Assembly: GCA_024639405.1 (NCBI GenBank)
Contig: JAHEIL010000052.1
Location: 1 to 44,157, forward strand
Length of the DNA stretch: 44,157 nucleotides
Reading direction: 5' to 3'
Source: Crocinitomicaceae bacterium
GTDB taxonomy: Bacteria; Bacteroidota; Bacteroidia; Flavobacteriales_D; Crocinitomicaceae
A program made the position numbers and the translations under genes. The stretch's first letter is position 1, and the number at the start of each line of letters is the position of its first letter. Shown piece by piece: positions 1-4,166 of this stretch. The notes under the pieces are model-generated. The model was given only the letters and a program-made list of their open reading frames with translations. It did no database searches and was not told the DNA's origin.

Positions 1-54
1 TTACAATATTTAATTACAACCTGGAATAAAAGTGTTTACTCCAACTTAATTACC

Positions 55-62
55 TATCTTTG
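55..62 (+). promoter_or_regulatory. Promoter -7 box (TATCTTTG) for left candidate sRNA
   Basis: TATCTTTG is an exact match to the Bacteroidota -7 consensus TAnnTTTG. No clear TTG -33 box is seen at the usual distance. Transcription would start near 68-70 and run into the hairpin and terminator structure ending near 160. Confidence 0.6.
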
Positions 63-68
63 TACCAC

Positions 69-160
69 TCTAAGTAATTAGAAAAAATATTTAAGACAAG
101 CCACATATGGCTGTGTGGAATAGAAGCCCCCTAGATGTATCAATATCGAAGGGGTTTTGT
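69..160 (+). ncRNA. Candidate small RNA 1
   Basis: This is a roughly 90-nt unit with no convincing ORF, lying between a TAnnTTTG box (55-62) and a terminator-like hairpin. Visible elements are a small hairpin AGCC (99-102)/GGCT (109-112), the linker GAATAGAA (118-125), and a G/C stem CCCCT (128-132)/AGGGG (150-154) followed by TTTTGT. The loop contains AGATGTATCAA (133-143). All of these elements recur in the same order at 419-475, which suggests a conserved RNA rather than a chance terminator. I do not recognise an Rfam family. It could instead be the 3' UTR or leader of a gene beyond the left edge. Confidence 0.5.
98..160 (+). repeat. 3' RNA module, copy 1
   Basis: This diverged copy shares AGCC-loop-GGCT, GAATAGAA and the loop 11-mer AGATGTATCAA, in order, with the module at 418-480. 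The terminator stem bases differ between copies but pairing is kept. Confidence 0.6.
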
Positions 161-248
161 CTTTTAAAATAGTCCTGATTTCAGGTTCAAAATCACCTTT
201 TTTTCTAAATATTACCCATAAAATTTAGTTTCAAATACTTGGATTTAG

Positions 249-256
249 TATCTTTA
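249..256 (+). promoter_or_regulatory. Promoter-like -7 box (TATCTTTA) for second candidate sRNA
   Basis: TATCTTTA matches TAnnTTTG at all but the last base and shares TATCTTT with the box of the first RNA. No good -33 TTG is seen. The inferred transcription start is about 262-265. Confidence 0.4.
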
Positions 257-263
257 CTTCAGA

Positions 264-480
264 ACACGTTCTTTAAATTCAAGCAAATTCCAATTAATTA
301 CAAGCGAACAATGAGGCGAACAAGCTCATTTTTACAATAGCTAACTAATTGAAAAACAACACAAAGGCATACGTTTACTCGGTCCCGTCCAGACCGCAAA
401 ACGCTAAAGTTAAAAGAAAGCCTCTATGGCTGGATGAATAGAAAACCCTAAGATGTATCAACTATCTTAGGGTTTTTGTT
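264..480 (+). ncRNA. Candidate structured small RNA 2 (about 215 nt)
   Basis: This non-coding stretch has several strong helices. CAATTAATTA (291-300) pairs with TAACTAATTG (342-351) with one mismatch, and encloses AATGAG (310-315)/CTCATT (325-330). CGTTT (372-376)/AAACG (399-403) encloses CGGTC (380-384)/GACCG (392-396). AGCC (419-422)/GGCT (428-431) follows. A perfect 12-bp terminator stem, AAACCCTAAGAT (443-454)/ATCTTAGGGTTT (464-475), ends in a T-run. The last two elements match the RNA at 69-160. The rod-like 5' domain recalls 6S-type RNAs, but I cannot assign a family. No SRP, tmRNA or RNase P signatures are visible. Confidence 0.55.
418..480 (+). repeat. 3' RNA module, copy 2
   Basis: This is the partner of the module at 98-160. 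GAATAGAA is at 436-443 and AGATGTATCAA at 451-461. The terminator stem here is a perfect 12 bp with a 9-nt loop (455-463). Confidence 0.6.
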
Positions 481-574
481 TTTATGAGAATTTTGAATTA
501 AAAAATTAAACGTTTTATTTTTTGATGTAAACAAATTTATTTAGTCCTAATTTATTATCATGAGAAAGATTTCT

Positions 575-612
575 AAATCAACCCCCTTTATAAAAAAAGG
601 GGGAATTGATTT
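575..612. repeat. Strong inverted repeat in a gene-free stretch
   Basis: AAATCAACCCCCTTT (575-589) pairs with AAAGGGGG (596-603) and TTGATTT (606-612), with a two-base bulge at 604-605 and a 6-nt loop. It lies about 175 bp beyond the stop of the minus-strand EamA gene. It may act as a terminator in that direction, but no long T-run follows it on either strand. The rest of 481-768 is AT-rich and shows no gene I can support. Confidence 0.55.
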
Positions 613-768
613 TGGTTGTAAAAGGGTAAAATACCAAGTTGTTATTTTACCAAGGCTAATAATTCTATTATATGAGTTGAGTTCTTTTTTCTCACTTAAA
701 CCTTTATAAATTGTAGCAATGTAAACATCTACAAAGTGTAAATATACATGAATGTAAAAAGAATAAAC

Positions 769-787
769 AGTTCAAGTTAGTTCAAGT
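769..787. repeat. 19-bp direct repeat, left copy
   Basis: AGTTCAAGTTAGTTCAAGT is itself two 10-bp units (AGTTCAAGTT). It is identical to 2721-2739, and its last base falls in the stop codon of the EamA gene. Together the copies bracket the two minus-strand genes between them. Confidence 0.8.
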
Positions 788-1638
788 TATACGCTTTGAA
801 GGTGAAGTATAAATGCCCCACTTGAAATAAAAATTAGCGCTAGAATAGTATAAAGTTTTATTTTTTCTTTAAAAAAGATAGCTGCAAAAACAATTGTCAA
901 CAAGGGGTTTGATAAGAATAATAAGCTTGAAATCAATGGATTGGTTACTTTTAAACCTAAGAAACTAAACAAAAGTGCTGAGAAAATAAGGAGCGCCATT
1001 ACCAGCACTTTTTTAAAATTCAACCTGACTTCAAGCTTAATTTGACTGTATGTTTGCGTTTTAACGATTAATAGTAATGCTGTTATAAACACAACGAATT
1101 CTTGATTTGAAATTAAAACCAATGCAGGTACTTCTGAAGCCAAATTTTTCCAATGAATTAAAGAAGAAGTGCTAAATAACAGCGTCATTAATAGCAAATA
1201 AAAATGTTGTTTGAACGTTATTTTTACATCCATTTCTTTATTAAAAAAGAGATGGACTAAAAATCCTACAATAATTAAAACAAGACCAAAGACTGAGTCA
1301 AATAGAACTATTTTTTCAACAAAAAATAAATAAACAGCTGTAAAAACAACACCAATTAAGTTATAAATTCCCAACCATTGTAATGGAGCATTTTTGATAA
1401 CAGTTAACATACAAAACAATCCCATTACTCCAAAAACAGAACCTATCGTAATTTTAAAATATGGCAATGAAAGTAATTCCTGGAAATCATAGTAATAAAA
1501 CACTAACCCACAAGAAATCAAACTAGTAAAAAATGCGCGATAACCAACTAAAAAAGGGATTGTTACAGTTTGTAAGTTCTTTTTCCAAAGCACATTATTC
1601 AATGAAAAAAGAAGGATGGAAATTAAAATAAAAATCAT
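787..1638 (-). CDS. EamA/DMT-family transporter
   Basis: This 283-residue integral membrane protein has about ten hydrophobic segments along its whole length and short basic loops, as in the EamA (drug/metabolite transporter) superfamily. The family exports small metabolites or amino acids from the cytoplasm, but the substrate cannot be read from the sequence. Its ATG overlaps the TGA of the upstream gene (ATGA at 1635-1638), so the two are probably translationally coupled and share a promoter. The stop codon touches a 19-bp direct repeat that also lies upstream of the operon. EamA membership is supported by topology and length; function beyond that is not. Confidence 0.75.
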   Translation of the reverse strand: MIFILISILLFSLNNVLWKKNLQTVTIPFLVGYRAFFTSLISCGLVFYYYDFQELLSLPYFKITIGSVFGVMGLFCMLTVIKNAPLQWLGIYNLIGVVFTAVYLFFVEKIVLFDSVFGLVLIIVGFLVHLFFNKEMDVKITFKQHFYLLLMTLLFSTSSLIHWKNLASEVPALVLISNQEFVVFITALLLIVKTQTYSQIKLEVRLNFKKVLVMALLIFSALLFSFLGLKVTNPLISSLLFLSNPLLTIVFAAIFFKEKIKLYTILALIFISSGAFILHLQSV

Positions 1639-2897: not shown

Positions 2898-4166
2898 ATG
2901 TCTAAAATAATATCTCTTCTTATTATCGTAAGTTGCATTCTAAGTTTTACTTCAAATGGTCAAAATAATTCTCTATTTGGTTTACTTAGAACTTCAAATC
3001 CAGCGGCTATTCATTTAGGTAGTTTAGATTTAAGTGCAGGTACTTTCAACCAAATAAGTCCTAATAGCATTGCTACCAGTTTCAACATAACAGGTGCTGC
3101 ACTTGATCCAATTGCAGGCACTTATTTTTTTCTTGGTACTAATGGGATGTTTTCTGTCGAATTGGATTCAGGAACAGTCCTATCTCAAGTACCTTTATCA
3201 AACCCTATCGCTCCAAGCAATTTCGACAATTTCCGTTTCAACACTAGTAATTCTACGCTTTATGGTTTAGCGAGAAGATATATTCAAGGAAGTGGACCCG
3301 GTCAAGGTTATGGCGAATTGTTTTTAGCAACTGCTAACCCAAATACTGGTATTATTACTCAAATCTCTCCGCAATCAGTTGGTGAATCATATGCTTTACA
3401 AGGGAATGCAATCGATCCTCATTTGATGGTGTATTATTATTCAATTGCTTCTAAATTTGTTGGATTGGATATGTACACTGGATTAGTCTATTCAACACCG
3501 AACATTAGTTTCCCACAGGGCGGATTGTATTTTGATAATTTCACTTACAATTGTGCAGACACGACGATTTACGGATTGATTAGAGTGAACAATACAGCTC
3601 CTGTTACGGTTCATTTTGGAAAAATCAACCCTCAAACTGGAGTTGTAACCCAAGTGTCACAACAACCATTAGCTTATACTTCGTTTACAATAAATGGTAG
3701 TTCAACAATTGACCCCACAACTGGAACTTATTATTATGTTAGCGTTTTGCCTCAAGGAGGAAATGCTGTAATTGGAGTTTCTATTCAAACAGGCAGCGTT
3801 GTAAGTGTAAACCCGATACCAAACAATGGAAATGTTCAAACTTATTTTGACATGATGCGTCATCCTTCTGATTGTTTTGGAGCACAGGCTTATAGACCAA
3901 ATCCAAGTGGAGGAACTGCAAGCACTTCAAATCTTTCTTCAAATGAATTGAACGTTTATCCTAATCCATTTAATAAACATTTAACGATTAAATCTGATCA
4001 AAATATAGTTGCTTTTAAACTTATAGATACGCAAGGTAAAGTTATCGTTCAAGAAGCTCCTTTCAAAACAGAACTTCAAGTTCAAACATCAGAACTTACA
4101 AATGGCATTTATTTTCTTGAAATCAAAACAGAGTTGAGTACTCAAATAATTAAAGTAATTAAGTAA
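2898..4166 (+). CDS. T9SS-sorted secreted protein with propeller-like repeats
   Basis: I place the start at the ATG at 2898 (422 residues). It gives a clean signal peptide (MSKIISLLIIVSCILSFTSNGQ, cut at 20 here), whereas an in-frame ATG at 2808 adds 30 residues before it. The body has about four to five repeats of 60-75 residues containing motifs such as LYGL, NITGAALDPIAGTYFF and FDNF.FN, a layout consistent with a beta-propeller or sheet-repeat surface protein. The last ~75 residues form a type A T9SS sorting domain (LNVYPNPFNKHLTIKS ... GIYFLEIKTE ... IIKVIK), which directs export and surface attachment or release through the type IX system. No catalytic motif is visible. Confidence 0.8.
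   Translation: MSKIISLLIIVSCILSFTSNGQNNSLFGLLRTSNPAAIHLGSLDLSAGTFNQISPNSIATSFNITGAALDPIAGTYFFLGTNGMFSVELDSGTVLSQVPLSNPIAPSNFDNFRFNTSNSTLYGLARRYIQGSGPGQGYGELFLATANPNTGIITQISPQSVGESYALQGNAIDPHLMVYYYSIASKFVGLDMYTGLVYSTPNISFPQGGLYFDNFTYNCADTTIYGLIRVNNTAPVTVHFGKINPQTGVVTQVSQQPLAYTSFTINGSSTIDPTTGTYYYVSVLPQGGNAVIGVSIQTGSVVSVNPIPNNGNVQTYFDMMRHPSDCFGAQAYRPNPSGGTASTSNLSSNELNVYPNPFNKHLTIKSDQNIVAFKLIDTQGKVIVQEAPFKTELQVQTSELTNGIYFLEIKTELSTQIIKVIK

Follow-up and report, generated by a model that had tools for sequence, protein, structure and literature searches.

A structured RNA found behind tRNA-Asp in Crocinitomicaceae and its probable promoter-bearing copy inside a tRNA-Asp island

Tyrosine-recombinase islands that integrate at tRNA genes, including ICEs, IMEs and genomic islands, enter the 3' end of the tRNA and leave a direct repeat at the far border, with the integrase beside attL and arm-like repeats at both ends. 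The locus described here shares these properties, and its mobile-island part is of an already known kind. Small RNAs offer two further comparisons: the 3'ETS of the E. coli leuZ operon, which we take to be a small RNA from a tRNA 3' trailer and which resembles this locus in that the 3' trailer of a tRNA precursor is the candidate RNA, and 6S-Flavo and other Rfam 15 families, which are likewise small structured RNAs. In a KplE1-type prophage, attL overlaps the integrase promoter (PMC2951348). The window, meaning the whole 44,157-nt stretch analysed here, is the entire contig C47, one of the 52 contigs of a 2.63-Mb genome. Near its start lie two units sharing a 3' module of ~71 nt, unit 1 at 69..165 and the module of unit 2 at 398..482, both on the + strand. 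Very probably, unit 2 is the trailer RNA of a host tRNA-Asp displaced by an island that entered that tRNA, and unit 1 is a promoter-bearing copy carried by the island; the action of the RNA and its replacement by the island are the parts of this reading that we infer.

The module comprises a hairpin of 4-5 bp with the nearly invariant apical octamer UAUGGCUG, then a linker, UAGAA, and finally a terminator hairpin that carries GUAUCAA in its loop in most copies. In unit 1, hairpin 1 occupies 101..118 (+) with a CCACA/TGTGG stem and the octamer at 106-113, followed by the linker AATAGAA at 119..125 (+; alignments A1 and A3) and the terminator hairpin, with GUAUCAA in its loop, at 124..157 (+). 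Folds and sequence alike present the latter as a G+C-rich hairpin followed by a U tract, the form of an intrinsic terminator, while the minimum-energy fold of unit 1 places U-G and A-U pairs inside the octamer and leaves UGGC as the loop. In the window, the 11-mer AGATGTATCAA has only two occurrences, at 133 and 451, and GAATAGAA is found at 118, at 436 and once on the minus strand at 3779. Among 295 random pairs of window segments, the longest common word averaged 7.0 and reached 11; the 11-mer by itself is therefore weak, and the case rests on the ordered set of elements and on the relatives. Within their own genome the two units match at a blastn E of 3.4e-7, and the folding of both modules beats all 200 shuffles (z -4.24 and -4.49). 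The proposal of an earlier note on this DNA, that the two units share a homologous structured module with ordered elements, is borne out by these matches and by the homologues.

Homologues were collected with a pattern search for the octamer plus GTATCAA, which returned 111 stretches; 80 of the 111, together with the window, were analysed for context, pairing and integrase proximity. Since both motifs were part of the search pattern, their conservation is circular in the 102-copy set, where the octamer is found with at most one mismatch in 95 of 102 copies. A second set of 67 copies came from regions hand-picked among the hits of R1, a covariance model built from nine module copies, and was not selected by the loop pattern; because R1 was itself built on octamer-bearing copies, this set is only less biased. 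In it, UAUGGCUG is exact in 63 of 67 copies and the terminator loop is less constant, with L364 and L365, for example, lacking GUAUCAA.

In an alignment fitted to the model, 98.6% of the module's cells are paired, 15 of 18 pairs show double changes, and the covariation score is 0.555 against 0.206 after shuffling; double changes affect all five stem pairs of hairpin 1 and 10 of 13 terminator pairs (A3). A count anchored on the octamer and not fitted to structure found the inner 4 bp fully paired in 19 of 21 distinct hairpins, against a mean of 2.9 and a maximum of 9 of 21 over 2000 shuffles. On nine copies, an outer helix, AAGAC/GTCTT, has 91.1% of its cells paired and a single pair with double changes. 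Judged from the sequence, the 3' module is real and its covariation strong, with compensatory changes that exceed chance, as defines a structured noncoding RNA. The loops thus stay conserved on changing but paired stems, as the earlier note had proposed, and a covariance model search of the kind that it had called for did find homologues with compensatory changes in related genomes. The first hairpin that it had drawn, AGCC/GGCT, does not survive: on 24 copies 69.8% of its cells are paired, equal to shuffles, with no double change, and this helix reaches into the octamer, while the covarying helix lies outside. A scan with Rfam 15, which the note had suggested for 6S-Flavo and other families, gave no family at gathering score in the window; the 17 matches in window 1-800 at E<=10 all fall far below gathering score, with 6S-Flavo not among them, and the module RNA is without an Rfam 15 match at threshold.

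With the 3' part of unit 2 as blastn query, strong matches were obtained in relatives, and in nine of the first 20 loci the module lies directly 3' of tRNA-Asp(GTC), with a tenth (L043) 172 nt behind it. Among the 102 copies, 44 are found no more than 250 nt 3' of tRNA-Asp (41 within 60 nt and three at 109-232 nt), 33 follow a tRNA-Asp 3' remnant without the tRNA body, defined by the 16-mer with at most 3 mismatches no more than 260 nt upstream, 21 are orphans and four lie at edges; a few remnant assignments are doubtful (L209, and the second copy of L141, whose core belongs to a neighbour). The corresponding counts in the 67-copy set are 33 behind tRNA-Asp, 16 remnant, 16 orphan and two edge. 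The family accordingly sits directly downstream of a tRNA gene, the position of a trailer; neither window copy adjoins a tRNA. In a census of 120 genomes, 20 lacked tRNA-Asp at the cut-off; among the 100 with a located tRNA-Asp, eight of them unclassed, at least 43 carry the module within 150 nt behind it, at least 16 carry it elsewhere only, and no module was detected in at least 33, all nine sampled genomes of genus g2 among them, so that the module is either dispensable or undetected there.

Under stricter filters for the large genome searches, by which weak matches are lost, R1 matches 143 of 240 genomes of the family in 18 of 24 genera, and 129 of 349 genomes of the order, 18 of these 129 belonging to four other families. 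A phylum-wide spread was considered and set aside: 25 of 395 sampled genomes match, at 39.6 bits or less except for two genomes of the same family. The loci matched by the pattern are titled Crocinitomicaceae, Fluviicola, Brumimicrobium, Lishizhenia, Crocinitomix, or Flavobacteriales or Bacteroidetes MAGs, with a few titled otherwise, such as Chryseobacterium and Polynucleobacter. A viral or plasmid origin was likewise rejected, with no exact match to the module pattern in viral_contigs and no match of window 36-482 to phages or plasmids at E<=0.001. From its position and covariation, the module reads as a conserved structured RNA that in Crocinitomicaceae, and in some further Flavobacteriales, normally forms the 3' trailer of tRNA-Asp.

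Such counts would also suit a module that does no more than terminate and protect tRNA-Asp transcripts, all other copies, unit 1 included, being passive debris left by islands that integrated repeatedly at tRNA-Asp. The copies at tRNA-Asp 3' remnants, about a third of the 102, the decay of some copies such as unit 2, the tandem stacking of islands and the genomes showing no module speak for this account, which we consider rather unlikely: an invariant UAUGGCUG borne by a covarying stem is more than termination requires, and further points against it come from solitary copies and from unit 1 below.

The motif TAnnTTTG, which we take to be the consensus of the Bacteroidota-type -7 promoter box, precedes 38 of the 39 distinct copies at tRNA-Asp, with one row (L203) mis-cut, and 11 of the 21 orphans, for which shuffles gave a mean of 3.0 and a maximum of 7. 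Among tRNA remnants a strict box precedes 9 of 27, against a shuffle mean of 4.0 and maximum of 11, and 7 of 27 on the reverse strand; promoter restoration at displaced copies was therefore rejected for want of clear enrichment, and these copies are not clearly kept expressed. Passive debris is also hard to square with G674 (L299, C7:116500-122500), where an intact module with its hairpin stands alone 3.1 kb downstream of tRNA-Asp behind its own TAACTTTG box. In that genome the tRNA-Asp has its own terminator-like hairpin, and the solitary module lies right behind a coding gene. At several island right ends, window 263-275 among them, GTTCTTTAAA or a similar word follows a promoter-like box; it presumably resembles a boxA antitermination element.

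The one tRNA-Asp located in the genome of the window lies on contig C24 at 45938-46014. Its 3' side holds a terminator-like hairpin, recognised by eye, and not the module, followed by a tyrosine integrase (C24:46306-47586; Pfam Phage_integrase, Phage_int_SAM_5 and Arm-DNA-bind_5) and RteC. The same three domains are present in 5/5 neighbouring integrases of relatives, and an integrase with them lies behind tRNA-Asp in G002 (=G685), G006 (=G684) and G007 (=G686). The end of C24 equals the first 121 nt of the window, an overlap that is the only link between the two contigs in the genome's own assembly and is backed by the sequences of L142 and G142. In the joined 88.6 kb, the core GTCCCGTCCAGACCGC, a 16-nt copy of the tRNA-Asp 3' end, occurs exactly twice at up to 3 mismatches, at C24:45997 and as the attR core at window 382..397 (+), and the 38,808 bp between the two cores are the length of the island. 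Direct repeats of a tRNA 3' end thus mark both borders, with a recombinase beside one of them. Near the right border, two direct repeats of GCGAACAA 12 bp apart occupy 304..323 (+), starting at 304 and 316; the word occurs ten times in the 88.6 kb, four of them within 145 bp at the left end. Among 28 distinct remnant-side ends, 11 show an exact 7-mer repeat at a distance of 12, and other distances from 8 to 24 reach at most five, which makes it probable that the GCGAACAA repeats are integrase arm sites.

Relatives place the border at the same point. Window 1-381 is identical to L142, a MAG contig titled Flavobacterium, at 379 of 381 positions and the core at 16 of 16, followed by 79 of 85 positions in the trailer and an unrelated flank beyond; the identity breaks behind the core, as attR would have it. 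The left flank of the tRNA-Asp matches G025 at 89% over 2.8 kb, and the right flank matches G006 (81%) and G025 (70-73%), two of 25 other genomes of the genus. On one contig, G142 carries tRNA-Asp, a 7.7-kb element, a related island, unit 1 and unit 2, with cores at 179133, 186847 and 220222 and an alignment unbroken across the join of C24 and the window; its second element matches the island described here at 92% over 2.6 kb on the left and at 96% over 3.3 kb plus 97% over 0.6 kb on the right. By these comparisons, the window opens with the right end of a tyrosine-recombinase island of 38,808 bp that sits at the 3' end of tRNA-Asp.

In the interval G142:C1:179133-220222 (L375-L377), a single tRNA-Asp carries a stack of two distinct integrative elements; the first (7.7 kb) has its own integrase and a trailer RNA copy at its left end, behind the tRNA. 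Additionally, eight loci (L139, L156, L162, L175, L178, L192, L195 and L197, for example L197:7158-7716) show two modules 327-415 nt apart with a solitary GIY-YIG ORF between them; it measures 83-96 aa, is truncated in L195 and gave PF01541 in 7/7 tested. The arrangement resembles a minimal endonuclease cassette flanked by repeats at the 3' end of tRNA-Asp. An integrase ORF was found within 600 nt in 9 of 33 remnants, and within 1.5 kb in none of 21 orphans and one of 44 tRNA-linked copies, in a count that used five integrase seeds (L311 dropped out) and in which 14 of the 44 tRNA-linked copies had less than 800 nt behind them. Pfam was run on 23 of the 38 island ORFs. Apart from the integrase, it recognised subunits of a type I restriction-modification system, an RND efflux set accompanied by a TetR regulator, two proteins with HTH_17, a helicase and a protein with a sacsin domain; no relaxase or mating-pair gene was among the 23.

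Unit 2 can be read directly from these borders. Its module is a model hit at 412-482 with 71.0 bits, and its homologue lies behind tRNA-Asp in relatives, so that the stretch 398..482 (+) appears as the displaced trailer of the host tRNA-Asp: unit 2 is, on this comparison, an attR scar with 16 nt of the tRNA-Asp 3' end plus the host trailer, 38.8 kb from its tRNA. The terminator at ~442-477 is intact; because hairpin 1 is damaged (CCTC/GATG, 421-424 and 433-436, around the octamer at 425-432) and no strict promoter lies upstream, unit 2 may be decaying. Of the TAnnTTT(G) box that the earlier note had assigned to each unit, the strict form holds for unit 1, TATCTTTG at 55..62 (+), while unit 2 has only the promoter-like TATCTTTA at 249..256 (+), which departs from the strict consensus. 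Right of unit 2, window 574-613 contains an inverted repeat around CCCCCTTTATAAAAAAAGGGGG, a terminator-like hairpin before a converging gene at 787-1638.

The extra 5' domain once attributed to unit 2 would make both units alternative forms of a single regulatory RNA, with an additional structured part in unit 2. The module common to both and the folding of window 260-482, better than shuffles at z -3.43 with the terminator included, lean towards this, as does the covariation score of the 5' helices on seven sequences, 0.097 against 0.067 after shuffling, reached by 13 of 500 shuffles at low power. Against it, those helices show 2 double-change cells in 152 and an unfavourable RNAalifold covariation term of +1.55 kcal/mol, the domain ends in tRNA-Asp sequence, its repeats recur at the other island end, and the identity to L142 breaks behind the core, leaving two forms of one RNA very improbable. 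The 5' domain is DNA conserved among islands of the same kind, and its arm-like repeats mark the DNA 5' of the unit 2 core as the attachment-site arm of the island; with unit 2 an attR plus a displaced trailer and unit 1 a stand-alone copy borne by the island, both the extra domain and the two-forms idea give way; the earlier note had recognised neither the island nor the connection to tRNA-Asp.

Unit 1 has no tRNA core. Its transcript probably starts ~7 nt after the strict box and opens with a leader hairpin at 70..81 (+), CTAA-GTAA-TTAG, whose GNRA-type tetraloop is GTAA, GCAA or GAAA in relatives and which is kept in 10 of 10 unit-1-class copies. This class, aligned as A5 with ten copies (nine distinct) from three genera, comprises the window, L142, L131, L172, L144, L169, L034, L315 and L334 (twice), and L228 holds a further copy. 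Invariant positions in A5 number 2 of 17 just upstream of the box, 9 of 10 in 53-62 and 67 of 103 in 63-165. In the three genera, related islands carry unit 1 at ~300 nt inward from their ends: among ten full-length distinct hits, in which the window is represented by an identical locus and the C24 fragment is excluded, the tRNA core follows 287-345 nt after the leader in six, and in the other four no core was seen, some of those loci being short downstream. The one-contig genome G147 has a pair of unit 1 and unit 2 at a distance of 36.8 kb from its tRNA-Asp. Close to unit 1 in the island described here, C24:83247-83996 (L075) encodes a 249-aa protein without a Pfam match, and ORFs with near-identical starts occur near modules in L048 and L051.

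That promoter, leader hairpin and module are kept in three genera without a tRNA core, and that compensating changes separate the CCACA/TGTGG stem of seven of the ten unit 1 copies from the CCCA/TGGG stem of the other three, again argues against passive debris. Unit 1 could instead be a regulatory RNA of the island that imitates the trailer RNA of the host and titrates away the partner of that RNA for the island's benefit, for example in excision control. Its island linkage, its promoter and its retention near the attachment site in several genomes would fit, and the octamer kept in solitary copies outside islands would not; the partner would be a putative target only, and mimicry and replacement are not separated by any result. 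We regard mimicry as improbable.

The displaced trailer with an island-borne copy is thus the reading that we prefer. Trailer linkage, covariation, island borders and unit 1 conservation are what the sequence itself provides, and the module is most likely a small RNA acting through UAUGGCUG. Unit 1 would yield a transcript of ~97 nt, and the trailer of tRNA-Asp would be released as a small RNA, which would act via the exposed UAUGGCUG as a contact site for base-pairing or protein binding. Insertion of the island would cut the trailer off from the tRNA-Asp promoter, and unit 1 would resupply the trailer RNA afterwards. The boxes ahead of tRNA-Asp copies and orphans, the solitary module of G674 and the genomes with the module behind tRNA-Asp or elsewhere only speak for this course of events; the genomes where no module was detected and the remnants without clear promoter enrichment speak against it. 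A broader proposal, held only tentatively and at less than even confidence, is that islands at tRNA-Asp sever a useful trailer small RNA and compensate by their own promoter-driven copy, as unit 1, or, in another island type, by a fresh trailer at the left end, as in the first G142 element. If this is true, mobile elements preserve the tRNA that they enter and also a small RNA that its tail encodes. Replacement of the displaced trailer by the island copy would mean that a small RNA next to the tRNA target is protected by the elements.

The analysis defines a structured RNA unmatched in Rfam 15, present in more than half of the family genomes searched, with a clear covariation model and an invariant octamer to test. 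It also carries a caution: where sequence like that of a tRNA lies alongside, a conserved 'RNA domain' can turn out to be an attachment-site arm. Our literature searches found no paper on the module RNA, and we know of no earlier description of an island that brings along a spare copy of the trailer RNA of its target. Compared with 6S-Flavo and the other Rfam 15 families, the module shares small size and structure without a covariance-model match at gathering score. The 3'ETS of leuZ differs in that the module here has covarying hairpins, an invariant octamer and stand-alone promoter-bearing genes, a distinction drawn by description and not by sequence. The KplE1-type prophage (PMC2951348) resembles the locus in having a promoter near the attachment site of an integrase element linked to a tRNA, differing in that the conserved promoter here lies inside the right end, before an RNA copy. 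Unlike known tRNA islands, finally, the far end here holds the host trailer RNA together with a promoter-bearing copy carried by the island.
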